A stretch of 64,000 nucleotides of DNA, from NCBI GenBank assembly GCA_945875845.1, contig CAMCMB010000005.1:92026-156025 (forward strand). Direction: 5' to 3'. Positions 44,214 through 64,000 of the stretch are shown here, piece by piece. Under the pieces are notes generated by a model, which saw nothing but the letters and a program-made list of their open reading frames with translations, was not told where the DNA came from and did not search any database. Made by a program: the position numbers and the translations under genes. Positions within the stretch are counted from its first letter, which is position 1. The number at the start of each line of letters is the position of its first letter. The DNA comes from Pirellula staleyi DSM 6068 (lineage in GTDB: Bacteria; Planctomycetota; Planctomycetia; Pirellulales; Pirellulaceae).

Positions 44214-47200
44214 TTAACGCGTTCGAAAGCCGCGTCGGAAACCGTTCGAGATGGGATTGGAGCTAACAGTTGCGCTTGCGGGTTGCGAAGGCAACGGGTT
44301 GGATTCGGTTCGTTTGGTCGAATCCGACGCATTGCTGGATGCGATCATCCGCTGCGGTGGTGCCTTTACTTGCTGAATCACTTGATCCACCAGTGCAGGA
44401 TTGAGCGAAACGCTTTCCCGCCGGTCGTTGGCGACTGGAGGGGTAGCGGATCCCTGCTCCCCTTCGCCCGAGCCGCTCGAATTGTTCGTAGCGTTCGTCG
44501 AAGTCGACGAAGACGACGTCGAAGTCGCCGGGGTGAAGGTCAGTTCGGACGGATGTGCCTGGATACGGTACAAGGATGCATCCCCCTCTTTGCCTCGCAT
44601 GACGACTTTGGGATCGCTAACAGGCAACGTCGCTTGAACGTTTTGATTCGATGGATTCGTTGCATGGAGGGTCAATTGATCGCCGGCCGTATTCAAAGAG
44701 ACTTTAATGTTCTTGAAGTTCCTCCAATCACCTTGACCATCCGTCCAGGCAGATTCCTTGTTTGCTGCGACTGCAGAGGTGATACCTCGCTTCAGGTTTT
44801 GACCCATGAAATCGCGAATGTCAACGAAGCGAGCCACTCTGGTACCCTCGTTGAAGGCAGGGGTGATCGAACTTGGATCACTGAATGCCGAAGTGACAAC
44901 TACGGACTGAGCGCCACCGGAGACGAATGGCAAATCAGGTATGGAGAACCGATAACTTCCAGGTCCGACGTTCTCGATCTCGACCCCAGCTTCGGTCGGT
45001 ACGATCGGAATCGCAGTTGACACGTAACCGCTGCCCGATGCGTCTAGAATTTCTACCGTTACGGGTAAGTCTCTGAAGAACGGAGGATACACAAGTTCAA
45101 GATCGCGGGGCTTAAAGTTTTGTACGGTGAGGGTTACCGTAGCTGTATCCGTTAATGTCCCGTCACTGATCGTGTAGGTGAACACCACTGCACCACTGAA
45201 GTCGATGTTAGGCGCACTGTAAAGAAGGCTTTTGCCATTGGGCCCTATCTGCACAGTCCCTTTGCCCGTTTCCGGTTGGGTGATTGCCGTGATCGTGTAG
45301 ACATCGCCAGTGTCCACAAGCGGATCGTTTGCTAGCACATCCAACGATTGATTTGGAGAAGACAAGGGACTCAAAGTATCATCGACAGCATTAGGCGGAT
45401 CGTTGACGCCCGTTACCGTAAAGGTTGCGGTGCCGTTTGCTAAACCTCCATTGCTGCTGCGAACGGTATAGACCACAAGCGATTGACCTGAGAAGTTCGC
45501 ATTCGGAGCAAAGGTAAGCCGCGTTCCATTCGATGTGATGGTTGCCGTTCCATTGGGTGCCCTGACATCCGTGATCGAAAGCGTATCGCCAGTTTGGGCT
45601 GGCAGATCGTTGGACAGTACGTCGAACTCAGCCGCTGCGGCATCTTCGACGATGGTAAACGACTCGCCGACCACGGTCGGTGGTGGAACCGCAGGGGACA
45701 CCGTGACAGTGACCGAGGCCGTGGATGTTCCTCCATTGCCATCGCTGATTGTGTAAGTAAAGGTTTCGTTGCCGGTAAAACCCGAGCGTGGAGTATAGAT
45801 GACGCCATTTCCACCCGTACCCAACCGAACCGTACCACCTTGATTGGGCGTCCCGACTTGAATGACCGTGAGAGTCTCACCGGTATCCGGACCAAGTGTA
45901 TCGTTGATTAAGACAGGGATAAATACATCCTTGTCGGTTGTTTTGACTGTATCGAGCGAGTCGTTGACGGCGACCGGGTTATCGTTGACGGCACGGAGTT
46001 GGACAGTGACGGTGGCCGACGCCGTGGCACCGGTTTGGTCTTGCACGGTGTAAGTGAAAATCTCTTGGCCATTGAGATTGGCCGGGGGCGTATAGATAAT
46101 TCGCCTGAGGTCGGATGCGATTGAGACCGTTCCACCTTGGGATGGAGTGCCTAGCGATTGCAAAGTCAGGACTGTATTTGAGCCTGAGACGATGGTGTCG
46201 TTCTCTAAAACCGCGAGTGAGTTGTTCGACGAATCTTCATCGAAGTTGAACGTATCATCGGCTGCGATAAAGTTTTGGCCGATGGGAAGATTCAAGGAGA
46301 CAAACGAAACGAGAGCTGGTGGAACTGCCGTGTCTTCTTCGAAGACTGCAAAACCGCGACTGTCACTCTCGGCAGGGTTGGTGCTAAACACGGCTTGGCC
46401 GGCTGCTTTCACTCGCATGCGGAGAGTTGCAAGCAACTGGGGATCGCGACCCGGCCCAACGTTAAAACTGGAGAATGCACCTAGCTCATCAACGATACCT
46501 GGCACACTTATGTCCGGAACGCTTCTACCGTTTCCGAATAACGAGGAATAGGTCAGCGGGTTGCTTCCGACCAATTCCATTTTGTCTGCGTCATACAACA
46601 AGTCCATATAAGCTGAGAAGACGCCGTCTCCCTCGGGATTGCCCCCTACACGAAGATCGTTGACGACGATTCGCAAAACGATTTCTTGACCGATCGAGGC
46701 CGACGTCAAGGCCGTGGTATTGGTGGAGTCAAAGGCTTGCAGCGTCACACTTACTTTCGCAGTATCCGCAACCGAAATCACAAACGCTTGCGTCTGAGAG
46801 TTACCTGCGGCATCCGTTAGGCGAAGGTTCGCGGTTTGAGAACCGACTTGACTCGCAATGGGTGTCCAAGTCATTAGGCCTGTTGTGGCATTGATGGCTA
46901 GACCGGCGGGACCATTTTCAAGTGAATAACGCAATCCTTGGCCTTCTTCTGGACTGGCTAAGTCAACGTTCAATGCATTGCCCACGTTCGCGGTCGTAGG
47001 CAAGGCGGATGATGGTATGGCGGCCGGAACGGTCGAGTCATAAACCACAGCTAAAGCCGGTGAAGCATTGCTTGTTTGGCCGTCTTGCGTTTGTCTCGCA
47101 ACAACGCTTTGAGTGCCGTTTCCGATCTGCGAAACCAACGTAGTCGTGATGGTAGTGGTTGCACCTGTAGCCACTGCCGTCCCGACAACTTGAGAACCGA

Positions 47201-48965
47201 CAAGCAAGTTCACCGTCGCTCCAGCAGTTGTACCGCTTACGATGAACTGCATGCTGGCCGCATTGGTGATGTTGTCCGAATCGCTTGTTCCGGTATCGCT
47301 CACGGCTGCTAAGTCCACTGCCGTTGGTGCCGAAATAGAAGCAGCCACATTGAACCGGAGAATCTGACTATCCGTTTTATCTCCTGTCGTGACCGTCGAT
47401 AGGTCTGTGGCCTGAACGCTTACTCTCAAATCGAACGAACCCGTATAGTTTTGCGGGGCGGTTACGCTCAGCAATCCCGTCGTTGGATTCACATTGAACT
47501 GGTAATCAACAGAACCACTTTTGGTGGCTCCGTAAGTCACAGCCTGGCCTTCGGCGTCTTGAGACGAGAGCTGGATCGTGACTGTCTGACCAGGTGCGAT
47601 TGCCGGGACCGTAATGTCATTCAGGAAGGGTGCCCCGTTCGCCGTGTCGGATGCAGCGGTAGCCGTAAACGTCCGAGAGAATTGATTGCCATTCACATCC
47701 GCAACTTGAACGGTAATGGTCGCCGTGCCCGATGCCGCCAGCGCCTTGAGTCTAATCAGTCCATTCTCAGTGTCATTGAAGATCGATGCGGAATTGATCG
47801 ATATTTCCGATATAGGTTTATCGCTACTACCGACTGTTGTCCGAGAAATGCCTTCGCGTACGGCGTCCCCTTCGATCAACTGACCGAAGATAGAATGGTT
47901 GAAGTCGAGATGGCGTTGGGGTCCCTCGGTGATAAAGAACTGAGAGTCGTTGGTATCATCAGAGGACTTGGCATAGGAGAGAATACCGGTTCGATTGTGC
48001 TGTAGGTTGACGTTGAATTGATCGTCGAAATTATCAAGCGTCGAACCACCGCTGCCGGTGCCCGTCGGGTCGCCGGCCTGAAGTACAAAATTGTCGATCA
48101 CCCTGTGAAAAATGATCTTGTTCGTCGCGGTTTGATTGTAAAAACCGTTGTTGGTCAACGTCTCGATGCGGTTGACTGGGCGCGGGGTTTCGTCCGCAAA
48201 CAATCGGTAGACCATGTCCCCATAACCATTGACCGAGATCTTCCATGCCTTGTTATTGGTAATCATTTCTGCGCTGATTACCGATGGATTGCTGCTTGAC
48301 ACCGTGATCGTCAATGGACCACCGTTCGGATCGTATGCGTCCACCGGGACATGCAAGGGCGAACCGTTGAGGACGGTTTGGTTTGGAATGGCAGTAAACG
48401 TTGGACTGCTTCCAAGCGGGATCGCAACGCCGGACAAGGTTGACAACTGCTGCAGGGTTTGCAGACCCGTGACACGCTGACCGCCACTGAATTCCCATGT
48501 TGGGTATTGTGTTACTCCTTCGCTGATCGCGGTCGCGTTGCGCGTACGATCCGGATTCGTCATCTCAATGAAAGGTAGGAAATGGGCTCCATCCTCGAAC
48601 AATTTCTTCTGTTCGGTGCAAACGGAACACCAGTCGGCGCCAAAAAATCGAACCCCAGCCTGCTGAAGGGCTTTTGCAAATTCAACCAAGTTTTGCGCAT
48701 CTTCTCCCTCGCCGACCATCCCAGATGTGCTCATGGGAGCACTGTTGACCAGGGCGGGAATGTTCGTCCCTGCAACAGTCGAATTCGCAGCCGTTGATGC
48801 TGCATCGTAAAAGTCGCCGGCCATCAATTGTCGCGTTTCTAGTGGCTCAAAGTGGATAGGACGCGATTTGCGGGTGGTCAATACTGGCAAAGCACCCTGG
48901 AGGACGGCCTTAAAAAATCGTCTAGCACCTTGCTTGATTGACTGGCTGCGTTGCATATTTTTCAT
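44214..48965 (-). CDS. Giant surface protein: thioredoxin-like, cyclophilin and cadherin-like repeats
   Basis: 1583 residues. The N-terminus has a basic stretch and FEPLETRQLMAG (residues 39-50), the planctomycete signal related to LEPR-type motifs. Residues 95-180 are a thioredoxin-like domain with FFGADWCSVCTEQKKLF (CSVC at 113-116) and YPTWEFSGGQRVTGLQTL, matching the thioredoxin part of VKOR-thioredoxin fusions but without the VKOR helices. Residues 242-395 are a cyclophilin-type peptidyl-prolyl isomerase (IIFHRVIDNFVLQAGDP, SQFFIT). Then come Ig-like and cohesin-like domains (He-PIG near GLMTWTP; VVNDLRVGGNPEG), then four cadherin-like/tandem-95 units with YTPxxxFxGxxxFTYTI..G cores. The tail is a Ser/Thr-rich low-complexity stretch ending in RRGFRTR. 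Probably exported; the oxidoreductase-plus-isomerase front end could help fold the protein itself or its partners. Confidence 0.88.
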   Translation of the reverse strand: MKNMQRSQSIKQGARRFFKAVLQGALPVLTTRKSRPIHFEPLETRQLMAGDFYDAASTAANSTVAGTNIPALVNSAPMSTSGMVGEGEDAQNLVEFAKALQQAGVRFFGADWCSVCTEQKKLFEDGAHFLPFIEMTNPDRTRNATAISEGVTQYPTWEFSGGQRVTGLQTLQQLSTLSGVAIPLGSSPTFTAIPNQTVLNGSPLHVPVDAYDPNGGPLTITVSSSNPSVISAEMITNNKAWKISVNGYGDMVYRLFADETPRPVNRIETLTNNGFYNQTATNKIIFHRVIDNFVLQAGDPTGTGSGGSTLDNFDDQFNVNLQHNRTGILSYAKSSDDTNDSQFFITEGPQRHLDFNHSIFGQLIEGDAVREGISRTTVGSSDKPISEISINSASIFNDTENGLIRLKALAASGTATITVQVADVNGNQFSRTFTATAASDTANGAPFLNDITVPAIAPGQTVTIQLSSQDAEGQAVTYGATKSGSVDYQFNVNPTTGLLSVTAPQNYTGSFDLRVSVQATDLSTVTTGDKTDSQILRFNVAASISAPTAVDLAAVSDTGTSDSDNITNAASMQFIVSGTTAGATVNLLVGSQVVGTAVATGATTTITTTLVSQIGNGTQSVVARQTQDGQTSNASPALAVVYDSTVPAAIPSSALPTTANVGNALNVDLASPEEGQGLRYSLENGPAGLAINATTGLMTWTPIASQVGSQTANLRLTDAAGNSQTQAFVISVADTAKVSVTLQAFDSTNTTALTSASIGQEIVLRIVVNDLRVGGNPEGDGVFSAYMDLLYDADKMELVGSNPLTYSSLFGNGRSVPDISVPGIVDELGAFSSFNVGPGRDPQLLATLRMRVKAAGQAVFSTNPAESDSRGFAVFEEDTAVPPALVSFVSLNLPIGQNFIAADDTFNFDEDSSNNSLAVLENDTIVSGSNTVLTLQSLGTPSQGGTVSIASDLRRIIYTPPANLNGQEIFTYTVQDQTGATASATVTVQLRAVNDNPVAVNDSLDTVKTTDKDVFIPVLINDTLGPDTGETLTVIQVGTPNQGGTVRLGTGGNGVIYTPRSGFTGNETFTYTISDGNGGTSTASVTVTVSPAVPPPTVVGESFTIVEDAAAAEFDVLSNDLPAQTGDTLSITDVRAPNGTATITSNGTRLTFAPNANFSGQSLVVYTVRSSNGGLANGTATFTVTGVNDPPNAVDDTLSPLSSPNQSLDVLANDPLVDTGDVYTITAITQPETGKGTVQIGPNGKSLLYSAPNIDFSGAVVFTYTISDGTLTDTATVTLTVQNFKPRDLELVYPPFFRDLPVTVEILDASGSGYVSTAIPIVPTEAGVEIENVGPGSYRFSIPDLPFVSGGAQSVVVTSAFSDPSSITPAFNEGTRVARFVDIRDFMGQNLKRGITSAVAANKESAWTDGQGDWRNFKNIKVSLNTAGDQLTLHATNPSNQNVQATLPVSDPKVVMRGKEGDASLYRIQAHPSELTFTPATSTSSSSTSTNATNNSSGSGEGEQGSATPPVANDRRESVSLNPALVDQVIQQVKAPPQRMIASSNASDSTKRTESNPLPSQPASATVSSNPISNGFRRGFRTR

Positions 48966-54511: not shown

Positions 54512-55558
54512 TCAGCTCCAGACAAACGGTCGGTTGAGAGCATCCACGTAAACACCATGATCGCGGTCCCGTGCGGCAAAGCAGCGACGCAACCATCGTG
54601 CGGAACGCAAATCCCCGGCATCAAAAAACTTTCTTCGGTGAAGAACTCGATAGTTATCAAAAACCAGAACGCTCCCGGGTTCAACGTTGATTGAAACGAT
54701 CTCGTCGTCGAGCGACTCAACCAATTCTGCTAGTTCGATAATCGTTCGCTTCGAGTTGTCGGTCGTGCCCACCGTTTGCCCCTCGTTGGCATTGAATCGG
54801 AGCCAGGGCTCGCCGGACAGCTCGCAATACTCCAACAAAGGCATGCGTCCAAGAGACGAACGGTCATTTGACTGCCCGGGCTTGATTTCGAAGATGCGCT
54901 TTTGCATTGCATTCAACAAACGATTGGACGCCGCCGCAATAATAGACGTGACCGGCAACAGTTCGGTCGCCACCGGTAGTCCAGTCGCGTCCTTGTTCCG
55001 GATACCTGCAAAACACAGGAAATGCGGAGAAGGAGACGCGGATCTCGAGCGTCCCTCAAACTCATATGCGTTGTCCGTATGCCATTCCAACGGCAACTTT
55101 GAGCCGTGTGACGACACGGACTCAGCCGCCGATTTGACCGGGCAAACGTTGCGAATCAAGCGTCCGAAGTTCTCGTATTCCACTGCAATCGGCTCCAGTC
55201 GAGCCAGTCGAATGCATCCCAAGAGAAGTGCATCCGTGAAGGCCACCGTCGCATCGTCGTGAAACGCTTGTGGTGTCGGTGGAATGTTGTCTTGAACGGG
55301 CAAGCCATCAATCACCAGAAACGGTTCTCCATTTCCATTGCCAATTCGACGGAAGGCAAATCGATCTTGGGTGTCCAGATACGGTGCGATTGCAGCCGCG
55401 CCCATGTCAGCCATGGTGTCCGCAGCGAAGTCGATTTGAAACGATCGGTCACCGATCTGATTCAGCAGAGAATAGCGAATCTGTTCTGCGGCCGAGGCCC
55501 GCAGGGCAACTCGTTCGCCTTGTGTTTTGATCTTATCGTTGGATGTTCGTTGAATCAT
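54512..55558 (-). CDS. TauD/TfdA (clavaminate-synthase-like) Fe(II)/2-oxoglutarate dioxygenase
   Basis: 348 residues. The iron-binding HxD is in LEWHTDNAYEFEG near residue 159, and the distal His lies in SVLVFDNYRVLHRRKFF near residue 313, followed by the Arg of RSARWLRRCF that binds 2-oxoglutarate. The order and spacing fit the clavaminate synthase, arginine- and asparagine-hydroxylase branch rather than taurine dioxygenase. Such enzymes often hydroxylate free or carrier-bound amino acids. The gene lies between the left 84-bp repeat and a cysteine-dioxygenase-like gene, on the same strand as the latter. Substrate unknown. Confidence 0.88.
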   Translation of the reverse strand: MIQRTSNDKIKTQGERVALRASAAEQIRYSLLNQIGDRSFQIDFAADTMADMGAAAIAPYLDTQDRFAFRRIGNGNGEPFLVIDGLPVQDNIPPTPQAFHDDATVAFTDALLLGCIRLARLEPIAVEYENFGRLIRNVCPVKSAAESVSSHGSKLPLEWHTDNAYEFEGRSRSASPSPHFLCFAGIRNKDATGLPVATELLPVTSIIAAASNRLLNAMQKRIFEIKPGQSNDRSSLGRMPLLEYCELSGEPWLRFNANEGQTVGTTDNSKRTIIELAELVESLDDEIVSINVEPGSVLVFDNYRVLHRRKFFDAGDLRSARWLRRCFAARDRDHGVYVDALNRPFVWS

Positions 55559-55907
55559 CGCTTGGTTCCTAAATAAAGTTTTTTTCGATCAAGTTTTAAA
55601 ACACGCTTTGGCCAAAAGCTGTCACCATTCTTTGGCAGTCCATGCGTGTTGAGAAGTTTCCAAACCGGTTTTAAACCTATCGCCGCTTCACAAATGAACA
55701 TTGATAGATCGGATCGACGATCATCCTGTCTATCCTGTCTATCCATGCTCGTTTCTTCAATTGTTTCGAGCATTCAGAATAAAGTTGCCTCCGTTTAGTA
55801 AGGCCCGGAAACGTATATGCGGGTACTTACCGCAAATCAGGCGCGGAAAATTGTTCGCGACGAATGGGCGTCGCGAACAATTTGATAACAGCACACCAAG
55901 CGTCAGC
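55559..55907. other. Gap between the two dioxygenase genes
   Basis: Contains the perfect hairpin at 55849-55884 and a CCTGTCTATCCTGTCTATCC direct duplication near 55727-55746. The remainder shows no gene that I can support. Confidence 0.5.
55849..55884 (-). terminator. Hairpin after the cysteine-dioxygenase-like gene
   Basis: Perfect 15-bp arms, AAATTGTTCGCGACG and CGTCGCGAACAATTT, with a 6-base loop, 24 bp past the stop codon at 55908. On the minus strand only a short T-run (TTTTCC) overlaps and follows the stem, so it may be a terminator or a palindromic repeat. Confidence 0.6.
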
Positions 55908-56375
55908 CTACGGGCGTATCACCAAGGGAGGTGAATACACATGCAGCGTGATCAAGTCGGAGTCTTCGGCATTCTCGATCTTGTGCACGAATGAGCCGGG
56001 CGCACTGACCACGTCCCCAGCACGTAGCTTTTGTTGCTGAACAGCGACTGGACCTGCCTCACTTGGGTCATAGATCGTTTCTGTCGCGACGCCGGTCAGC
56101 ACCCGAACTCCACAACTGGATTGCGAGTGGGAATGGATGCTTGACATCTGTTGAGGACGCCAACACAATACGATGACTTGAAATTTTGGTCCGTCGAAAA
56201 CAAAGTTTCGAGCATACGTGGACTCGGAAAACAAAACATGCTGAACTACGTCTTCATAAACCACAGGATTTTCACTTAAAATCTCGTGGATGCGATCAGG
56301 GGTGAGCGTAGCACTACCTAACAGCTCATCTACAAGCTGCTTCAATTTTGGATGGACAAACGTTGACGAAAACAT
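55908..56375 (-). CDS. Cysteine dioxygenase-like cupin enzyme
   Basis: 155 residues from the ATG at 56375, which follows AGGGAAG. The cupin signature CWRPQQMSSIHSHSQSSCGV near residue 71 supplies two iron-binding His and the Cys that in cysteine dioxygenase cross-links to Tyr. The second cupin motif, GDVVSAPGSFVHKIEN, gives the third His. These are the marks of thiol dioxygenases, which turn cysteine (or 3-mercaptopropionate or cysteamine) into the sulfinate. It is shorter than mammalian CDO (about 200 residues) but usual for bacterial ones. It is divergent from the HTH gene and on the same strand as the TauD-like dioxygenase. Confidence 0.88.
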   Translation of the reverse strand: MFSSTFVHPKLKQLVDELLGSATLTPDRIHEILSENPVVYEDVVQHVLFSESTYARNFVFDGPKFQVIVLCWRPQQMSSIHSHSQSSCGVRVLTGVATETIYDPSEAGPVAVQQQKLRAGDVVSAPGSFVHKIENAEDSDLITLHVYSPPLVIRP

Positions 56376-56502
56376 AGGACTTCCCTTCGAACCAAAGTTG
56401 GTGAAAAAGGAGTCCGGCGCCGAACTCGTACGATGAATGAATCGTATTCGGCATCTGATAGCGGAACAGAGTTTGAAACCGGTTTGAAACCGGGGGACAT
56501 CG

Positions 56503-57558
56503 ATGGGAAGACTACCGAAACATAGAGGAGGCATAGATGAAGAAACGAAATGGGTATCCTTTGGCGATGAGATAAAACGATTGATGGACGAAAAGGGATT
56601 GAAATCCACTACCCTTGCACATGATGCGTTAGTTCCACCTAGCGTGGTTAAGGATGCGAGACAAAGCCGCAACGTCTCATTAGAACACCTAACAAATATC
56701 GCTCGAGTACTGAATGTAAACGTCAGTAATATTGGCAAACCAATTCCAGAGCCCTCAATCACATCGACGTCCGTGTTAAACGCCGCAGAAGAGTTTCTAA
56801 CCAAGAACGGGGATGCATCCGATGTTCTTGCTCTCATCACCGCTCAACGCGGGAATAAACTGATCGCGGAATTTATTCTTCTGGAAAAGGATCCATTAAA
56901 GAAGTACTTCGATCTCATCCTCGCGTACCTGTATCCAAACGAATCCACAAAACTGTCAGAAAATGCGAGACGCGGACTACGTGCATTCAAGGATTTCGCC
57001 ACCATGCTCTCGGTGCCACGTGACGATCTGGAACAGGTACACGCGGATCTCGCACGGGAGTGTGTGCGAGTTGACGCTAAGTGCAATGAGACGCTCGTTA
57101 GCTACTTGGTCATTGCACGGGCGCTCGCGGAAAAAGAGCCTGAGGCAGCGCAAAGCCGCTCCATCCAATCGCTTGCCAATGACGATTGTTCTCTTTCGAT
57201 CACTGACCGGAATCATCAATGGCTCATCCCAGTCATCGTCGGAATACCTCAGCTTGCCGATGCTGGCGAGTTTGACGGCTCCATTCGCCCGTTTACCGAA
57301 GGATTGGCAAGGCTATTTCCAATTCCGATTACGACAGCAGACCAAGTCAAAGAGATCAAAAGGAGACTGGGGGACTATCGGAAACAACACCGATTTGTCG
57401 CTGCCATTCTTCGCGAAAATCAAAAAGATCCAATCCCAACCATTCATAGGACGTTTCCGGACTTGATTGTGATCGTGTTACCGAAAACTGACGACAAGCG
57501 TTACACTGAAATTTTGGGTTGGCGTCAAGATATTGAATCACGGATCAACAAAGCCTAA
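56503..57558 (+). CDS. XRE-type HTH protein of the MoxR-vWA-FGE module
   Basis: 351 residues. Residues 15-80 look like a Cro/C1 helix-turn-helix (FGDEIKRLMDEKGLKSTTLA, then VVKDARQSRNVSLEHLTNIA, ARVLNVNVSNIG). Residues 100-351 match no family that I can name. They comprise a helical part rich in acidic residues, then alternating strands and helices ending in FPDLIVIVLPKTDDKRYTEIL, which could be a small alpha/beta nuclease- or effector-like domain; this is speculative. The MoxR gene starts 2 bp after its stop, and the vWA-FGE gene overlaps MoxR, so the three form one operon. It may be the regulator of the module or its effector. Confidence 0.8.
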   Translation: MGRLPKHRGGIDEETKWVSFGDEIKRLMDEKGLKSTTLAHDALVPPSVVKDARQSRNVSLEHLTNIARVLNVNVSNIGKPIPEPSITSTSVLNAAEEFLTKNGDASDVLALITAQRGNKLIAEFILLEKDPLKKYFDLILAYLYPNESTKLSENARRGLRAFKDFATMLSVPRDDLEQVHADLARECVRVDAKCNETLVSYLVIARALAEKEPEAAQSRSIQSLANDDCSLSITDRNHQWLIPVIVGIPQLADAGEFDGSIRPFTEGLARLFPIPITTADQVKEIKRRLGDYRKQHRFVAAILRENQKDPIPTIHRTFPDLIVIVLPKTDDKRYTEILGWRQDIESRINKA

Positions 57559-57559
57559 C

Positions 57560-58594
57560 ATGCCGCAACCAACTAGACTTATCCCCATCGCCAAAGATGA
57601 TTTCGAATGTATTGATCACCTGATGGATCACGATCAGTATTGGGCCATCGAAGGAGCACTGGCCGCTAATCGACCGTTGCTCGTACGTGGTGAACCGGGG
57701 CTTGGCAAAACGCAACTCGCCTACGCCGCAGCCGCGATGCTCAATCGTCCTATCAAGCACTTCACCATCGATTCTGCCACCGAAGCTCGCGATCTGCTCT
57801 GGACCTTCGATGCAATTCAACGACTGGCGGATGCCCAGGTCGCCAGCCACCTCTACGCAGATCGCGAACTGCTGCGAAACGAACTCGCTGTGACAAAGTA
57901 CGTCCGACCCGGGCCGCTCTGGTGGGCTATTCATTGGGAGTCGGCTTTCAACATCGATCCAAACTCCGCTCCCAACCAACCTACCGGCTGGACCAAAGAC
58001 AAAGGTATCGTCATCCTCATCGACGAAATCGATAAAGCGGAATCCAACGTCCCCAACGGTTTGCTCGAAGTCCTAGGATCCAGACAGTTCACACCCTATG
58101 GTTGGAGCCATGCGATTCGTTCGGAACAGTCAAACGATAAAAAGTCAAATGATCCACCGCTGATCATCATTACGACCAATGAGGAACGAACGCTGCCGGA
58201 CCCGTTCCTTCGGCGTTGCTGCGTTTTGAATTTGACGTTGCCCGATTGCGTACAAGACAACGGAGCTGACTTGGAAGAGCGAGACCGGATCAAGTTTGTC
58301 GAATACTTTGTCGAACTCGGAAAGGCTCACTTTCCAAAAGTGATTCTCGAAGAGCAAATTCGAGCGTGTGCGGAGTTACTGCTGGAGGATCGCAAATATG
58401 CGGTCCTCAATCAAGTGTCTCCAAAGCCAGGACCGGCCGAGTTTCTCGACTTTCTTCGGGCGATGATCTCTCTGGTCAAAAAACAACTGGGTGATGGCAA
58501 ACATTCCAAATCCGTGGTCGAAAACGCCTACAACGAGATCAGCCAGAATATTCGCCAATTTGTATTTAGCAAATCCAAGAAGCCGGATGAATGA
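57560..58594 (+). CDS. MoxR-type AAA+ ATPase of the FGE module
   Basis: 344 residues from ATG 57560 (MPQPTRLIPIAKDDFECIDH). AAA+ motifs: Walker A VRGEPGLGKTQLA near residue 47, Walker B GIVILIDEIDKAE, sensor 1 IIITTNEERTLPDPFLRRC with the arginine finger region, and a helical lid beyond residue 260. An insertion (TGWTKDK, then a loop around SEQSNDKKSNDPP) is not found in the housekeeping MoxR at 14570. Established knowledge: MoxR ATPases paired with vWA proteins act as energy-dependent switches, also in conflict systems. It overlaps the following vWA-FGE gene by 4 bp. Confidence 0.9.
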   Translation: MPQPTRLIPIAKDDFECIDHLMDHDQYWAIEGALAANRPLLVRGEPGLGKTQLAYAAAAMLNRPIKHFTIDSATEARDLLWTFDAIQRLADAQVASHLYADRELLRNELAVTKYVRPGPLWWAIHWESAFNIDPNSAPNQPTGWTKDKGIVILIDEIDKAESNVPNGLLEVLGSRQFTPYGWSHAIRSEQSNDKKSNDPPLIIITTNEERTLPDPFLRRCCVLNLTLPDCVQDNGADLEERDRIKFVEYFVELGKAHFPKVILEEQIRACAELLLEDRKYAVLNQVSPKPGPAEFLDFLRAMISLVKKQLGDGKHSKSVVENAYNEISQNIRQFVFSKSKKPDE

Positions 58595-61500
58595 TGTCTC
58601 ATCCAGTCTGTCGGACCAATAGCATCCTCGGGCGTGCCGATTTGTTGAGAGCCATGGCTTGCGATTCGAGCGTGGATTCGGCAGAAATTGTGTCGGCCAT
58701 GGCCTCGCTCATCGGCATGAGTGTTCGAAAAAAAGCCGAATCCGTCGCAAAGACATTACCGGAATCCATCGAGATCGCAATCCCGAATTCCCGCGTCGAG
58801 CAACCCATTTCTATTGGGTATCCCGACAATCTCGAGAACATCGCATGTTGGCTGCCAACACAATACGAACGTATGCCATCCGCCTCGGGCACTTTGCCCG
58901 AGAAAGAGAAACAAGAGGCCCGCTTGGCGTGGACCAACCCACCCAAAAAGCGACCAAAGCATCAGCCACTCATGCCGTGGAAAAGTCTTCGCTCGCTGCT
59001 CAAGGACACTACGCACCCGATATCGACTAGCCATTCGATTCACATCGGCAAACTCACACGTCAGATCGCCCATGGAGAGTTCATTCGAAGCATTCCGAAG
59101 CGGTCACAAAGACGATCAACTCAGCGGCTCAATTTGGTCATCGATCGAAGTTCTCGATTAATTCCCTTTACGCATGATCAAGATCTGGTGTGGCGTCAAC
59201 TACAGCAAGCATTGCCGAATGGCCGACTCCGGCTTTTTGAATGTCACAACCCCTTTCAGATGGTCACCGCGACCTCGGAAGGAAATACCGAGGATGCGAG
59301 TTACATCGAACGTCAATTCCTGGATGGGTCCGTGTTGATCCTCGGAGACTTGGGGGTTTTAGAAAAGAATCAACCCATCGAAAAACAATGGTTGGCATGG
59401 GTCCGTAGATTGCATCAGCGAGGCGTTCGCATCTCGGCCCTCGTACCGTATTCATTGGATCGAGTTCCTAACGCCTTCACATCCTACCTGCAAGCAATTC
59501 CCTGGCAAGGTTCAGCCGTCTCCAGCGTTCGTGATGCGGAAGCAAGAAATAAGTTGGTCGATGATTTGCTAACCCTAGCTGCACCAACCTTTCGATTGGA
59601 ACCGTCGCTGTTACGTGACTTGAGGTTGCTTTCGCCAAACGCATGCGATGCATCGATTGAATCGGACGTATGGCAAAGCACGCACCTCGCAAGCAACCAT
59701 CCAGAAGCGGCAAAAAATGATCGACCAGCAAGCAAGCGGCTTTTTGTGGAAAAGTTTCAACGGTTGCCCCCTGAAGTTCGCAAACGTGCTTTGGAAACCA
59801 TTCGGAATTGGAGAGTCTGTCTGCCGTCCGCGCAGCTATATTTCAGCGAACTACTGAATCTTGAAGAATCGAGCCGTAAATTGGTCGAGAAGTCCGATAC
59901 CGAAGATGCGCGAAACTACATTCGATTGTTAAAGGAATCTATTGAATCTGGATTAGGTGGTCTGGCACGCAGAGAGTTTTTTGACCGCGTGACGGGACGG
60001 TCGACCGACGCAGCCTTAACCGACCCAGAAGTAGGTGAAATCTATCGGAATTATCGTTATTTGTTCCATCGCCACCTGGGGCTGCATTCAGCCACAAAAC
60101 CTACGGATATCGACGGGAGCCATGATGAAAGGATGGTTTCGATTGAGGTTTCCGACCGAGTGGTTCGGCTAGGTGTGAGTCCCGCACGCAGTCTGGCTGC
60201 TGTTCCGATTCGAACGACCAATGGCATCATCACGATCGCATCCGAAAGCGATGAGTCTCGATTTTGGAAGGGTGGAAAGAAACCGGACTATGTTTCGGAC
60301 TTTGGTCGTGACGAATATGGGGCGTGGTTTGAGTTCCAATTACCACATCACGACGGGCAAGGGGTGGTTACGCAACGAATGCGATGGATCGCGCCGGGTT
60401 CGTTCATGATGGGGTCTCCTGAACAAGAGAAAGGACGGTATTCAGACGAAGGACCACAACATCGTGTGAGCATCACCAAAGGATTTTGGCTGGCTGACAC
60501 GCCTTGTACTCAAGAATTTTGGCTGGCCATGACGGGCAATAAACCAAGTCAATTTGTTGGACCGAAACGACCCGTTGAGAAAGTATCGTGGGATGATGTG
60601 ACGGATGCGCTCGAGGGCTTGAGTCAACGACTCTTTGGCCTCGATCCTGGATTGCCTAGCGAGGCACAGTGGGAATACGCATGTCGGGCAGGGACGACAA
60701 CGGCCTATAACGTCGGAGACACTCTATCGGCCAAAGATGCTAACTTTGCAGGAGAACTCAAAGGGACCAGCGACGTGAAGCGATATCGCCCCAATGCTTG
60801 GGGGTTGTTCGAAACGCATGGCAATGTTCGGGAATGGTGTCGTGATGGAAAGCGAAAATACTCTGAGACTCCGCAGGTTGATCCAACAGGTGACCTTGAG
60901 GGCTCGGGCCGTGTCGTGCGTGGTGGTAGTTGGATCTACTACGCCGCGAGTGTGCGGTCCGCCTGCCGGGATGCGCTCGACCCGGTCCTTCGGGTTGAGT
61001 ACCTGGGCTTCCGCCTCCTGAGTTCAGCCAGTGCGGAGCCGAACGAGATGGTGGAGGTGCCCGTCGCGGAGCAGGGCTCGGAGCCATCTCGTTTCGGCGC
61101 AGCCGAAGTTTTTTCTCATGTTTTTTCCCTCCATGACTTCGACGCCGAACCCATCGAATTCCCGTTAGCCGATTTGGTACCTGAACCAGCCCGGTCGACT
61201 CGAACGAGCACATTGCTCCTCTCGAGCAACCTCGAAAAGATTGGATATGAACGAGTTGAAAAGCCCGAATGGGCGGTTGCATACGGCCAAGATCCGTATG
61301 GAACGTATGCGGACATCCGGGTGGATGGCTTGGGCGTCGACGCTACTCCAGTCCGTCAGCGACTGCGTTGGATACCGCCGGGCCGATTCCAGATGGGCTC
61401 ACCGGATGGCGAGCCAGGACGCGGCGACGACGAAAGCCTGCACGAAGTCACCCTGTCGCATGGCTATTGGATGTTTGACACGCCTTGCACGCAGCGGCTT

Positions 61501-62220
61501 TGGCAGGCGGTCATGTCGAACAATCCGAGTACTTTCAAGGATCCCGATCGACCAGTGGAAAATGTCAGTTGGGACGATGCCAATGAGTTTGCTGCTCAAT
61601 GGAACCTCAAACTAACTCGATTTGCGATTGAGTTTCGGCTCCCCACGGAAGCGGAATGGGAGTATGCCTGCCGAGCGGGAACGGCATCTGCCATCTATAC
61701 GGGCGATTTAGAAATACTAGGAGACGCAAACGCGCCCGCCTTGGACGCGATTGCTTGGTACGGGGGAAACTGTGGACACAAGTACGATTTGGACGTATCC
61801 CAGTCGTTGGAGCATCCCTGGCTCAGCGACCAGCAATACCCAGCGAAACGTGGAGGAACGAGAAAGGTAAAGTGCAAGGCCCCCAACGCATTGGGATTGT
61901 ATGATATGCTAGGGAACGTTTGGGAGTGGTGCTCCGATTGGTACAGTCCATATGGTGGTGACAGTTCGATCGATCCAACAGGTGACCTTGAAGGCTCGAG
62001 CCGTGTCTTGCGTGGTGGTAGTTGGATCGGCGGCGCCGCGTATGTGCGGTCCGCCTACCGGGATGCGTACGACCCGGGCCTTCGGAATGTGCGTGTGGGC
62101 TTCCGCCTCCTGAGTTCAGCGAGGAAAACAAAACAAAACAGTACAGGCGGTGAACGGAGAGAGCGGTTCGAAAGGGAGGCCGAGGGACGAGGCCGAACGA
62201 AGAACAAGCGATCGAAGTGA
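58591..62220 (+). CDS. vWA-like protein with two hypervariable FGE-sulfatase domains
   Basis: 1209 residues. Residues 1-175 are poorly conserved. Residues 178-290 look like a degenerate vWA domain: strand LNLVIDRSSRL (a DxSxS-like metal site reading D185-R-S-S), then LDGSVLILGDLGVL and GVRISALVPYSLDR. A helical linker follows to about 560. FGE domain 1 spans about 563-811 (MRWIAPGSFMMGSPEQEKGR; PSEAQWEYACRAGT; WGLFETHGNVREWCRDG; VVRGGSWIYYAA). After a 70-residue spacer comes FGE domain 2, about 883-1176 (RLRWIPPGRFQMGSPDG; PTEAEWEYACRAGT; GNVWEWCSDWY; VLRGGSWIGGAA). The paired active-site cysteines of real formylglycine-generating enzymes are absent at the WI.. and following positions, so these are C-type-lectin-fold binding domains. 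Both end in a DGR-type variable repeat. A charged tail closes the protein. Confidence 0.88.
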   Translation: MMSHPVCRTNSILGRADLLRAMACDSSVDSAEIVSAMASLIGMSVRKKAESVAKTLPESIEIAIPNSRVEQPISIGYPDNLENIACWLPTQYERMPSASGTLPEKEKQEARLAWTNPPKKRPKHQPLMPWKSLRSLLKDTTHPISTSHSIHIGKLTRQIAHGEFIRSIPKRSQRRSTQRLNLVIDRSSRLIPFTHDQDLVWRQLQQALPNGRLRLFECHNPFQMVTATSEGNTEDASYIERQFLDGSVLILGDLGVLEKNQPIEKQWLAWVRRLHQRGVRISALVPYSLDRVPNAFTSYLQAIPWQGSAVSSVRDAEARNKLVDDLLTLAAPTFRLEPSLLRDLRLLSPNACDASIESDVWQSTHLASNHPEAAKNDRPASKRLFVEKFQRLPPEVRKRALETIRNWRVCLPSAQLYFSELLNLEESSRKLVEKSDTEDARNYIRLLKESIESGLGGLARREFFDRVTGRSTDAALTDPEVGEIYRNYRYLFHRHLGLHSATKPTDIDGSHDERMVSIEVSDRVVRLGVSPARSLAAVPIRTTNGIITIASESDESRFWKGGKKPDYVSDFGRDEYGAWFEFQLPHHDGQGVVTQRMRWIAPGSFMMGSPEQEKGRYSDEGPQHRVSITKGFWLADTPCTQEFWLAMTGNKPSQFVGPKRPVEKVSWDDVTDALEGLSQRLFGLDPGLPSEAQWEYACRAGTTTAYNVGDTLSAKDANFAGELKGTSDVKRYRPNAWGLFETHGNVREWCRDGKRKYSETPQVDPTGDLEGSGRVVRGGSWIYYAASVRSACRDALDPVLRVEYLGFRLLSSASAEPNEMVEVPVAEQGSEPSRFGAAEVFSHVFSLHDFDAEPIEFPLADLVPEPARSTRTSTLLLSSNLEKIGYERVEKPEWAVAYGQDPYGTYADIRVDGLGVDATPVRQRLRWIPPGRFQMGSPDGEPGRGDDESLHEVTLSHGYWMFDTPCTQRLWQAVMSNNPSTFKDPDRPVENVSWDDANEFAAQWNLKLTRFAIEFRLPTEAEWEYACRAGTASAIYTGDLEILGDANAPALDAIAWYGGNCGHKYDLDVSQSLEHPWLSDQQYPAKRGGTRKVKCKAPNALGLYDMLGNVWEWCSDWYSPYGGDSSIDPTGDLEGSSRVLRGGSWIGGAAYVRSAYRDAYDPGLRNVRVGFRLLSSARKTKQNSTGGERRERFEREAEGRGRTKNKRSK
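60907..61028 (+). repeat. DGR variable repeat VR1 (first FGE domain)
   Basis: 122 bp from the codon after GGCTCG to GAGTTCAGC. Aligned without gaps to VR2 and VR3 it shows 24 variable columns in 16 of 36 codons up to the conserved CGC. All but one fall on first or second codon bases, and each can be explained by an adenine in a shared template. It ends in GGGCTTCCGCCTCCTGAGTT, identical in all three. Confidence 0.9.
61038..61098. repeat. Inverted repeat just after VR1
   Basis: GCCGAACGAGATGG at 61038-61051 pairs with CCATCTCGTTTCGGC at 61084-61098 with a single bulged base, 9 bp past the end of VR1 and inside the coding sequence. Hairpins downstream of variable repeats help retargeting in studied DGRs; the long 32-base loop here is atypical. 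Confidence 0.7.
61999..62120 (+). repeat. DGR variable repeat VR2 (second FGE domain)
   Basis: 122 bp aligned to VR1. It carries the most different set of residues at the variable codons (for example GGC GGC where VR1 has TAC TAC, TAT for AGT, CGT for TAC). Synonymous positions of the constant codons are unchanged. The CGT/TAC pair gives the single third-base difference among the three copies. Confidence 0.9.
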
Positions 62221-62273
62221 AGCGCGTCGCGTTTTCTCCCCCTCGCCCAGCTTCGGAGGCTGCTGATTTTGTG

Positions 62274-62343
62274 AGCCGCTGGGCGCTAGCCCCGGTTTAG
62301 TGGCTTCGCCACAGGCGGCAACCGGGGCTAGCGCCCAACGGCT
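62274..62343. repeat. 24-bp inverted repeat after the vWA-FGE gene
   Basis: GGGCGCTAGCCCCGGTT pairs perfectly with AACCGGGGCTAGCGCCC; with the flanking AGCCGCT/AACGGCT the arms reach 24 bp with one mismatch. A small GTGGC-TTC-GCCAC hairpin sits in the loop. It may end the operon transcript, though no T-run follows. Confidence 0.88.
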
Positions 62344-62543
62344 TACCATGAACCAACAAGCAGGTCATAAATCAGCAGTCTCCTTCAGGGAGAGGGGTGA
62401 AGGGGGTAAAGCCCTGAATTGTAAGTCTCCGGTTCAGCGATTTGTTAAGGCTTCGGCAACGAGGCTAGACATGGAATTCACGATCAAAAACATAATCAAA
62501 ACACAGTGCAAAACCCCTCACCCCCAGCCCCTCTCCCCGAAGC

Positions 62544-62679
62544 GGGGCGAGGGGAGCGAGATCAAAAGATTTAGCTCGCAAAGAACGCTCTCCCCGAGTA
62601 CGGGGCGAGGGGAGCAAGAACATAAGATAACCGGGGCGAGGGGAGCGAGATCAAACGGTGTAGCTCGCAGAGAACGCTC
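62544..62679. repeat. 47-bp GC-rich direct repeats between the FGE genes
   Basis: Two 47-bp copies (62544-62590 and 62633-62679) start GGGGCGAGGGGAGCGAGATC and end AGAACGCTC, with about five differences. A third partial GGGGCGAGGGGAGC lies between them. This is low-complexity intergenic sequence; nothing in 62221-62701 looks coding. Confidence 0.8.
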
Positions 62680-62701
62680 ACGATGCGCGTTTTTTTAAAC
62701 C

Positions 62702-63538
62702 ATGACGACAACTTCACGAACTCTAAATCGTTGCCCGTTTCTGTATGGTGAGTCCCCCTTGTGGGCCAGCGGTTTTGGTCAGGACGAGGTTGGCTACTAT
62801 ACCGAGTTCTCTCTTCCTACGGGTGACAACTATTGGGATACGGTGACACAACGCATGCGTTGGATCCCACCCGGTGCGTTCATGATGGGCTCACCTGAAA
62901 CAGAGTTGGGGCGTAGAGAAAACGAAACGTTGCATGAAGTGATCATTAGCCGTGGCTATTGGTTGGCTGAGACGGCTTGTACTCAGCGATTGTGGCGGGC
63001 AGTCATGCAAGAAAATCCGAGTCGCTTCCAGGGCGATGAACGACCCGTGGAAAACGTAAAATATGGTGACGTACAGTCGTTTATCGCAAAGCTCAACGAA
63101 CGGCTTCCAAGTAGCCGATTTGCAATGCCGAGTGAAGCACAGTGGGAATACGCTTGCCGCGCGGGCACAAGTACTCCTTTTTCCTTTGGGGAAACGATCC
63201 GCACGGATCAGTCGAACTTCGATGGCAGGTTTCCATATGGTGACGCACCGGCGGAGCGATACCGCAGTGAGACGGTTGTCGTGAAATCCCTGCCGGCCAA
63301 CGCATGGGGGCTGTACGAAATGCATGGTAACGTGTGGGAGTGGTGCGCCGATTGGTATGGAGCGTATTCCAAGGAGCGTCAGGTTGATCCTACGGGAAAC
63401 AAATCGGGCTCGAACCGTGTCATGCGTGGTGGTGGTTGGGTCCACGACGCCGCGAGTGTGCGGTCCGCCTGCCGGGGTGCGCTCGACCCGGTCTTTCGGA
63501 ATGTGTACCTGGGCTTCCGCCTCCTGAGTTCAGCGTAA
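62702..63538 (+). CDS. Stand-alone FGE-sulfatase-domain protein with a variable repeat
   Basis: 278 residues forming one C-type-lectin-like FGE domain. Signature blocks: MRWIPPGAFMMGSPETELGR near residue 53, RPVENVKYGDVQSFI, PSEAQWEYACRAGTSTPF, WGLYEMHGNVWEWCADWYGAYS and VMRGGGWVHDAASVRSACRG. The FGE active-site cysteine pair is absent. The C-terminal 40 residues are VR3. No signal peptide is visible, so it acts in the cytoplasm like the vWA-FGE protein. It lies 481 bp downstream of that gene across a repeat-rich gap, so it probably has its own promoter and is a second DGR target of the same system. Confidence 0.88.
   Translation: MTTTSRTLNRCPFLYGESPLWASGFGQDEVGYYTEFSLPTGDNYWDTVTQRMRWIPPGAFMMGSPETELGRRENETLHEVIISRGYWLAETACTQRLWRAVMQENPSRFQGDERPVENVKYGDVQSFIAKLNERLPSSRFAMPSEAQWEYACRAGTSTPFSFGETIRTDQSNFDGRFPYGDAPAERYRSETVVVKSLPANAWGLYEMHGNVWEWCADWYGAYSKERQVDPTGNKSGSNRVMRGGGWVHDAASVRSACRGALDPVFRNVYLGFRLLSSA
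63413..63534 (+). repeat. DGR variable repeat VR3 (stand-alone FGE protein)
   Basis: 122 bp aligned gap-free to VR1 and VR2, ending in the same constant GGGCTTCCGCCTCCTGAGTT segment four bases before the stop codon. At the first codon it reads AAC and at the second ATG where VR1 and VR2 have G or T, so it may retain template bases there. Confidence 0.9.
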
Positions 63539-63555
63539 CAAGTCACGGGGGGCTG

Positions 63556-63579
63556 GTCGAACGGAGTGAGCGGTTCGAC
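63556..63579. repeat. Hairpin just downstream of VR3
   Basis: GTCGAAC, 10-base loop GGAGTGAGCG, GTTCGAC, starting 21 bp after VR3. A related stretch (GAACGGAGAGAGCGGTTCGA) follows VR2 at 62152-62171, where the stem is reduced to GAAC/GTTC. The shared position suggests a DGR-associated structure. Confidence 0.75.
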
Positions 63580-63586
63580 AGAGAGG

Positions 63587-63670
63587 CCGATGGGTTTGCA
63601 TTCCCATCAATTGTCCTTTGTTCATCCCGTAACGAAGCTTCGGGTTGTTTTTGAGCGATAGCTGGGTACC
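63587..63670 (+). repeat. 84-bp direct repeat, right copy
   Basis: Same 84 bp as 54352-54435 with two substitutions. It would encode the last 24 residues of the TrhO-RluA protein with one change (HQ for HR) and keeps the stop codon in frame, but has no upstream gene here. It marks the right edge of the 9.2-kb segment. Confidence 0.95.
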
Positions 63671-63721
63671 ACCACCGGCAATCAACCGCCAGCCAGCGGC
63701 TAACCGCCAGAATCCATCAAC

Positions 63722-63823
63722 GCAAGCGCAGCGAGCGGTCACTGCCCGAAAGACCGAAAGCGCAGCGAGCGGTCACTACCCAAACGACCGCAAGCGCAGC
63801 GAGCAGTCACTGCCCCAACGACC
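63722..63823. repeat. 34-bp tandem repeat, three units
   Basis: Units start at 63722, 63756 and 63790, each containing AAGCGCAGCGAGCGGTCACT with one to a few changes. They are directly adjacent without spacers, so not a CRISPR array. Confidence 0.88.
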
Positions 63824-63967
63824 TTGTGTCGTTGGACAGCAAGTTTGGTCTGCTAAACCGAGTCCCACCGCGAAGCGGTCCCGGCCCCCATGTGCTTGCC
63901 ACATGGGTGAGGAAAGTTTCCTGGCCCCGCGGCGTTAGAAACTTCAGCGACCCACGACACAAGGTCG
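63819..63967. repeat. Inverted-repeat-bounded, hairpin-rich element at the right edge
   Basis: Terminal arms CGACCTTGTGTCGT (63819-63832) and ACGACACAAGGTCG (63954-63967) are perfectly complementary over 14 bp. Between them lie CCCATGTG-CTTGC-CACATGGG (63887-63907), CCGC-GAA-GCGG and GTTT/AAAC hairpins. It could be a structured RNA or a miniature mobile element; no open reading frame is supported in 63671-64000. Confidence 0.65.
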
Positions 63968-64000
63968 CGGGGGGCTCAAACCGCCTGACGGCGATTGTTG

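Follow-up and report, generated by a model that had tools for sequence, protein, structure and literature searches.

The repeats at the right-hand end of the stretch analysed here, 64,000 nucleotides from an assembly assigned to Pirellula staleyi and called the window throughout, are very probably variable repeats (VRs) that a diversity-generating retroelement (DGR) has written by mutagenic retrohoming into a MoxR-linked row of genes. The row stands on the forward strand at the end of the window and runs from an HTH gene through a MoxR gene to a long target gene with two FGE domains and a short FGE target gene; three 122-bp repeats, VR1 to VR3, form the C-terminal ends of the FGE domains (Table 1). 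In the mechanism that we propose, an error-prone reverse transcriptase (RT) would copy a template RNA, misreading its adenines, and the cDNA would replace the 3' ends of these FGE-type C-type-lectin domains.

Adenine fingerprint of the repeats

A first-pass annotation of the window had described the three segments as aligning without gaps and as varying in a manner that points to template adenines. On re-examination, the gapless alignment holds and lies in the frame of the open reading frames (ORFs), the variable columns number 24 of 122 (12 first, 11 second and 1 third codon bases), and the first 36 codons divide, as counted before, into 16 variable ones and 20 that are identical at all three bases. 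The statement that every column is compatible with a template adenine stands in part: adenine is seen at 16 of the 24 columns and the other 8 are accommodated if all three copies have mutated, but column 95, a third codon base at which one of VR1-VR4 differs, does not fit the simplest scheme. A fourth copy of this kind of repeat, VR4, belongs to a paralogous cluster of contig C6; its first codon also departs from that scheme, at the third base. A fifth copy, VR5, also on C6, is 18 non-A bases in 99 off the common inferred template and was excluded from the column counts.

Among the first 99 columns of VR1-VR3, 75 are invariant and a single one of these is adenine, as compared with 18.1 expected from the composition of the two ORFs; with VR4 included, 71 are invariant, none is adenine and 17.0 would be expected, and in neither case did any of 200,000 simulations give a count so low. 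The 28 variable columns of VR1-VR4 are distributed as 13, 13 and 2 over the three codon bases, and 19 of them show adenine in some copy. As a control, the FGE region just upstream was taken from the four paralogues: adenine occupies 43 of its 179 invariant columns (Fisher 1.4e-7), and its variable columns are spread as 95, 84 and 149 over the codon bases (Fisher 3.4e-5 for third bases). In a second control where the template is known, namely the four VRs of the genus relative G013 described below, adenine makes up 3 of 78 invariant columns. The earlier observation that the FGE domains have diverged outside the repeat is borne out by third-base identities of 35-43% upstream versus 95-100% within it, and where amino acids are identical the same codon is used at 24/24 to 29/29 places in the repeat versus 26/81 to 52/129 upstream (six pairs). 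A 23-base anchor at the 3' end is identical in VR1, VR2 and VR3 and is a candidate for the initiation-of-mutagenic-homing (IMH) site. The exact VR pattern found no match in genome contigs and none in viral contigs, searches from which records of the window's own genome were possibly excluded.

Changes in related proteins

If template adenines direct the variation, changes among relatives should fall on predicted codons, and the first-pass annotation had made adenine-directed variation the point on which related strains would decide. The mutable codons, 17 of the first 33, were set beforehand from the DNA of VR1-VR4 within the genome. They were then compared with the four proteins (P0001-P0004) retrieved by using residues 1-560 of the long target as a protein query and with the two closest among 120 listed relatives of the short gene (P0005 and P0006). 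In all six proteins the predicted adenine codons bear a disproportionate share of the changes. P0001 differs at 30 of 34 mutable codons of VR1 and VR2, at 0 of 32 other VR codons and at 54 of 1127 positions elsewhere (mutable versus other VR codons, p 8.5e-15). The corresponding counts are 24/34, 4/32 and 81/1104 for P0002, 26/34, 2/32 and 99/1090 for P0003, and 29/34, 5/32 and 215/1107 for P0004; for the short gene they are 15/17, 2/16 and 15/238 in P0005 and 14/17, 2/16 and 35/238 in P0006. None of the 7 anchor codons is changed in any of the six. The absolute majority of differences lies outside the VRs, so that the contrast is one of rate. Since the VRs of the closest related protein, P0001, are almost fully re-randomised, writing appears to have been recent in this group.

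A complete retroelement in a relative of the genus

The genus relative G013 (Planctomycetota LacPavin_0818_WC50_MAG_55_36) carries a DGR in complete order, with an HRDC gene (PF00570), an RT gene and a template directly after it, and its four VRs show 0, 0, 0 and 2 non-A mismatches to that template. The reading of the window repeats as those of a DGR thus gains a relative in which VRs and template behave in the matching way. Like the window, G013 has a MoxR gene, a long FGE target and VRs with the LLSSA anchor; unlike the window, it has HRDC gene, RT and template in place, and the template differs at 29 of 122 bases from the type inferred for the window (type A). The inferred template matches it at 93 of 122 bases, versus 70-82 for the other templates scanned. 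Directly upstream of the HRDC gene, RT and template, G013 encodes a second protein in which each of two FGE domains carries a VR (L079:14526-16262), and tandem VRs therefore occur beside an intact DGR too.

Relatives of the G013 RT were collected in 25 loci, G013 included, several of which are cut by contig ends. A template follows the RT in 20 of the 25, and 18 of these 20 have a VR that departs from it at no more than 1 non-A base. The target N-terminus has homologues in 11 of the 25 loci, and MoxR has them in 11. In an RT tree of 22 loci (L172, L183 and L188 were left out) all 11 loci with the N-terminus fall within one clade together with G013 (99/100), and the three DGR RTs of the window's own genome fall outside it.

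The missing template and reverse transcriptase

These three RTs lie on contigs C129, C38 and C17. The first-pass annotation had recognised neither template nor RT in the window, and none was found on contig C5, of which the window is the right end (92026-156025) and which stops 466 bp past VR3. An HRDC accessory gene (PF00570) stands beside the C129 and C17 RTs, and no accessory protein, Avd or HRDC, was recognised at the window. The C129 and C38 templates are intact and each matches its adjacent VRs with 0 non-A mismatches; as sources of the window VRs both were ruled out by their non-A mismatches. After the C17 RT, the template site holds a hybrid of template repeat (TR) and VR (L157:8147-8269 of C17, minus strand), whose 5' part is like the G016 template and whose 3' part is VR-like, followed by a tail like a target gene; it is either a product of recombination or an assembly chimera. 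A 5'-truncated second copy of the C129 template, identical over 146 bases, lies at L204:7621-7766 (C1:223620-223765), and contig C1 has no RT match in the RVT_1 search. Other RVT_1 matches are on C50 (the best match, with a frame of 935 aa) and C55, neither of which the C129 RT recovers as a query at E 1e-20, and on C41 and C49, which are short, below the curated cut-off and presumably fragments of group II introns. NCBIfam has no DGR RT label among its matches, the best for the G013 and C129 RTs being group II RT/maturase below the cut-off, and the name DGR RT therefore rests on the adjacent template.

Several results weigh against the proposal that a DGR wrote the window repeats. With the inferred type-A template as query, the 149-contig assembly gave five VRs and short matches and no template; with the G013 template it gave VRs and the C38 template at 70-73% and no matching template. 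No RT of the G013 clade was found in the assembly, its own RTs being 35-37% identical to that of G013. The final 89 bases of C5 recur exactly at an end of contig C141, which has one 1417-aa ORF without Pfam family and no recognisable RT. The idea of an RT just past the end of C5 was dropped on this ground, and the link between the two contigs is itself uncertain because the shared 89 bases lie inside a dispersed repeat. The type-A template was inferred from the VRs themselves, so that finding only 0 or 1 non-A mismatches between it and VR1-VR4 does not amount to a test. The comparison of related proteins is at the protein level only, and some of their framework changes misfit template A (4 in P0002, 2 in P0003, 5 in P0004, 2 in P0005 and 2 in P0006); some of these may reflect another template and the rest are unexplained. 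A hairpin follows the VR in phage BPP-1 (PMC3240598), and here one is suggested only 3' of VR1 (z -2.59; VR2 +0.70, VR3 -0.30, G013 -0.91). The downstream hairpin was accordingly dropped as a general proof of DGR writing.

A complete genome with neither DGR-type RT nor template had been named in advance as evidence against the reading. The assembly goes some way towards this, yielding neither a matching template nor an RT from the MoxR-linked clade, but it consists of 149 contigs and carries three other DGR RTs. In our proposal a type-A template and an RT of G013's MoxR-linked clade would either lie in an assembly gap or have been lost recently. In a search across the genus, at least 7 of 16 RT matches lie within 750 bases of a contig end (one contig was excluded from the tally); with C5 itself ending in a dispersed repeat, a gap is about as plausible as loss. 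The RT P0126, labelled Planctomycetota, is 86% identical to the G013 RT and by that similarity a candidate for the missing one.

Loss of the retroelement has a chance only somewhat short of even: a DGR would have written the repeats and then disappeared from the lineage, leaving VRs that record past writing and no longer change. The absence of template and G013-type RT from an assembly that is 99.95% complete fits such a relic, as do strains of Treponema denticola that keep target genes without RT and TR (PMC4891356). DGR 7 of Thiohalocapsa cuts both ways, its VRs having no perfect template match in the genome, yet long reads revealed variants in which RT and TR are intact (PMC10907252). The nearly complete re-randomisation of P0001 (30/34, versus 54/1127 elsewhere), which indicates recent writing in the group, and the frequent breaks of assemblies near RTs speak against it. 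It is rather improbable that the window VRs were written in trans by one of the resident DGRs (C129, C38 or C17) and that its template has changed since. Trans writing is indicated elsewhere in the genome, where the C129 template meets a C6 VR with 0 non-A and 22/32 A mismatches, but the C129 and C38 templates misfit the window VRs, C17 has a TR/VR hybrid where its template should be, and the resident RTs stand outside the clade whose loci carry MoxR and such targets. Tandem duplication with gene conversion and diversifying selection, without any DGR, would suit paralogous FGE domains in one row and their identical silent sites, but is very improbable, as it predicts neither the A-free invariant columns (0/71 versus 43/179), nor changes in related proteins on exactly the A-column codons, nor templates in relatives that are rich in AAY codons at those places.

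Paralogues on contig C6 and possible exchange of templates

The C6 cluster encodes a 1217-aa protein whose last FGE domain ends in VR4. Over 99 columns, the VR of its middle FGE domain (L018:9779-9901, minus strand) agrees with the C129 template at every non-A base and differs from it at 22 of 32 A bases; identity is lost within GGCTTTCGCC, and the anchor of the gene is still LLSSA, unlike the 3' anchor of C129. Judged from these alignments, one C6 polypeptide appears to carry VRs of two templates, and its middle domain is an apparent case of trans writing across DGR families.

The frameworks of the VRs vary as well, the same VR sites carrying framework A (VR1-VR3 of the window, P0001) or class B (P0002, P0005). 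The framework changes of P0002, in both VRs, and of P0005 affect the same two codons, 13 (alanine to arginine) and 22 (alanine to arginine or glycine), and both VR5 of the window's own genome and the G013 template have arginine at codons 13 and 22. Against one single template B stand P0004, in which the same codons have changed to other residues, P0006, which shares the codon-13 change and has a different second change, and VR5, which is 20 non-A bases off the G013 template and 18 off template A. From the distances of VR5, B is to be read as a class and not as one template. We tentatively consider, at odds somewhat below even, that variation has two layers: adenine-directed hypermutation of ligand codons, and template exchange that replaces the VR framework, with different DGRs sharing a sensor protein through a common 3' anchor. 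That the two-template C6 protein and the shifted frameworks represent template exchange is less certain than their description, and gene conversion between targets is a possible source of both. Trans writing and incomplete loci are described for Thiohalocapsa (PMC10907252), and two template types, besides targets in strains lacking RT and TR, for T. denticola (PMC4891356).

The C6 cluster also contains a trypsin-like peptidase (L018:14529-15701), which matches EAD1 weakly and below the cut-off (E 0.0065), and a protein combining trypsin with a DNA/RNA endonuclease (L018:16068-18001), both of which look like effectors of conflict systems. Small ORFs of similar look stand beside FGE/DGR genes at L018:7984-8508 (C6), which has no Pfam match, and at L005:606-1061 (C38); by their appearance we take both to be REP-associated transposases.

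Gene row and its surroundings

The assembly measures 7.0 Mb (99.95% complete, 3.55% contaminated), and contig C5 ends 466 bp past VR3. The genes of the row are tightly packed, the 3' end of the HTH gene overlapping the MoxR gene and the MoxR gene overlapping the long target gene by 4 bases. The MoxR protein is 59% identical to its C6 paralogue; for the HTH protein, a homology with the 411-aa protein of C6 was considered and none was found. Upstream of the row, on the minus strand, are ORFs for a TauD-family dioxygenase and a cysteine dioxygenase (window 54512-56840), the listed start of the latter overlapping the HTH gene. Elsewhere in the window a 1583-aa protein combines a cyclophilin domain with several bacterial Ig/cadherin-like domains (44214-48965, minus strand).

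Table 1. Features of the gene row and its repeats (window coordinates unless another contig is named)
Feature	Position	Strand	Basis or remark
HTH (Cro/C1-type) protein, 351 aa, opens the row	56503..57558	+	PF13443 E 1.8e-6
MoxR-type AAA ATPase, 353 aa	57533..58594	+	PF07728 E 4.6e-11
Long DGR target, 1209 aa: N-terminal extension and two FGE domains	58591..62220	+	PF03781, two stretches; related proteins P0001-P0004
Possible cryptic vWA-like domain in the N-terminal extension (prediction)	58924..59640	+	AlphaFold core model, Foldseek
FGE domains of the long target	about 60376-61020 and 61369-62112	+	PF03781
VR1, C-terminal end of first FGE domain, long target	60907..61028	+	gapless alignment
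VR2, C-terminal end of second FGE domain, long target	61999..62120	+	gapless alignment
Short FGE-only target, 278 aa	62702..63538	+	PF03781 E 4.9e-44; TvpA 2y3c E 2.8e-21
VR3, C-terminal end of short target	63413..63534	+	gapless alignment
Constant 3' anchor, 23 bases, GGC TTC CGC CTC CTG AGT TCA GC	VR1 61006-61028; VR2 62098-62120; VR3 63512-63534	+	identical in three copies
Dispersed repeat, boundary approximate; contig C5 ends inside	63717..64000	+	53 genome matches (self included) to 63536-64000, mostly this part
VR4, fourth copy, paralogous cluster	contig C6, 46705-46826	minus	same repeat kind as VR1-VR3

Fold and possible function of the targets

By sequence the targets carry FGE-sulfatase domains, that is the C-type-lectin fold, and they align with TvpA through the VR, which is the C-terminal segment aligning with TvpA and with catalytic FGEs. 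In catalytic FGEs a cysteine pair in this segment forms the active site. Neither of the CHxSYC cysteines has a counterpart in VR3 in alignments with 6muj, 2q17, 5nxl and 6s07, which makes a binding role of the target FGE domains likelier than an enzymatic one.

The N-terminal extension of the long target has no Pfam match. When an AlphaFold core model of it (pLDDT 77.5, pTM 0.70) was compared by Foldseek, NorQD complex chain G ranked first (E 1.5e-4, with no other match reaching E 0.001) and vWA/MIDAS entries took ranks 2-7, with TM below 0.5 for ranks 1-7. We take NorQ to be a MoxR-type ATPase and NorD its vWA partner. Among 17 aligned sequences, aspartate 185 is conserved in 16 and aspartate 253 in all 17; both stand at strand ends, which we assume to be the places of the vWA metal site. 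Of 13 members, one matched Pfam VWA_CoxE (E 0.042) along with two unrelated families (E 0.081 and 0.33), and a PDB profile search detected no vWA by sequence. On the strength of the model, the N-terminus of the targets may hold a cryptic vWA-like domain.

The targets would be ligand sensors, in line with what Dore et al. and Kaur et al. propose, with diversified FGE domains binding an invader-derived ligand. The cryptic vWA-like part would couple them to the MoxR ATPase, which may relay the signal, either to the HTH protein or to some other effector.

Relation to known systems and significance

The closest published counterpart is DGR 8 of Thiohalocapsa PB-PSB1, of RT clade 5A (Dore et al. 2024, PMC10907252), and the row would belong to this type, a clade name that rests on gene order and the RT tree. 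In both, MoxR stands directly upstream of a target whose N-terminal extension has no predicted domain, an HTH gene replaces VMAP, and a long target is accompanied by a short one with only the C-type-lectin domain (CLec); the two genomes are also alike in having trans-acting and incomplete loci. Unlike in DGR 8, the long target of the window contains a pair of FGE domains that both carry a VR (in that paper, CLec domains in tandem are described from DGR 4 and 5); neither a matching template nor an RT of the MoxR-linked clade was found in the window's assembly, the host is by its relatives a planctomycete and the N-terminus may be a cryptic vWA. The VMAP/MoxR-vWA ternary conflict systems (Kaur et al. 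2020, PMC7159879) likewise have MoxR beside an FGS/FGE target with DGR-driven variability, their template lying nearby or elsewhere in the genome, whereas at the window no VMAP gene was recognised and no vWA detected by sequence. The TvpA DGR of Treponema denticola (structure 2y3c) shares the FGE-type fold, with the window VR aligning to the C-terminal end of TvpA, and resembles the window's genome in its HRDC accessory, in having two template types among strains and in the targets of strains without RT and TR; 62% of the T. denticola targets have lipoprotein signals (PMC4891356), whereas the window targets stand in a row with a MoxR ATPase.

Among the MoxR conflict systems diversified by DGRs the row is a further case, in which one protein has tandem VRs, related proteins vary strongly and the host is, judged by its relatives, a planctomycete. 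Three VRs in one row, together with a close relative whose VRs are nearly fully re-randomised, make a clean setting for asking which ligands such sensors bind. If the cryptic vWA is real, targets regarded as being without predicted domain would join the ordinary MoxR-vWA scheme, and if two templates have indeed written into one protein, DGRs can exchange targets.

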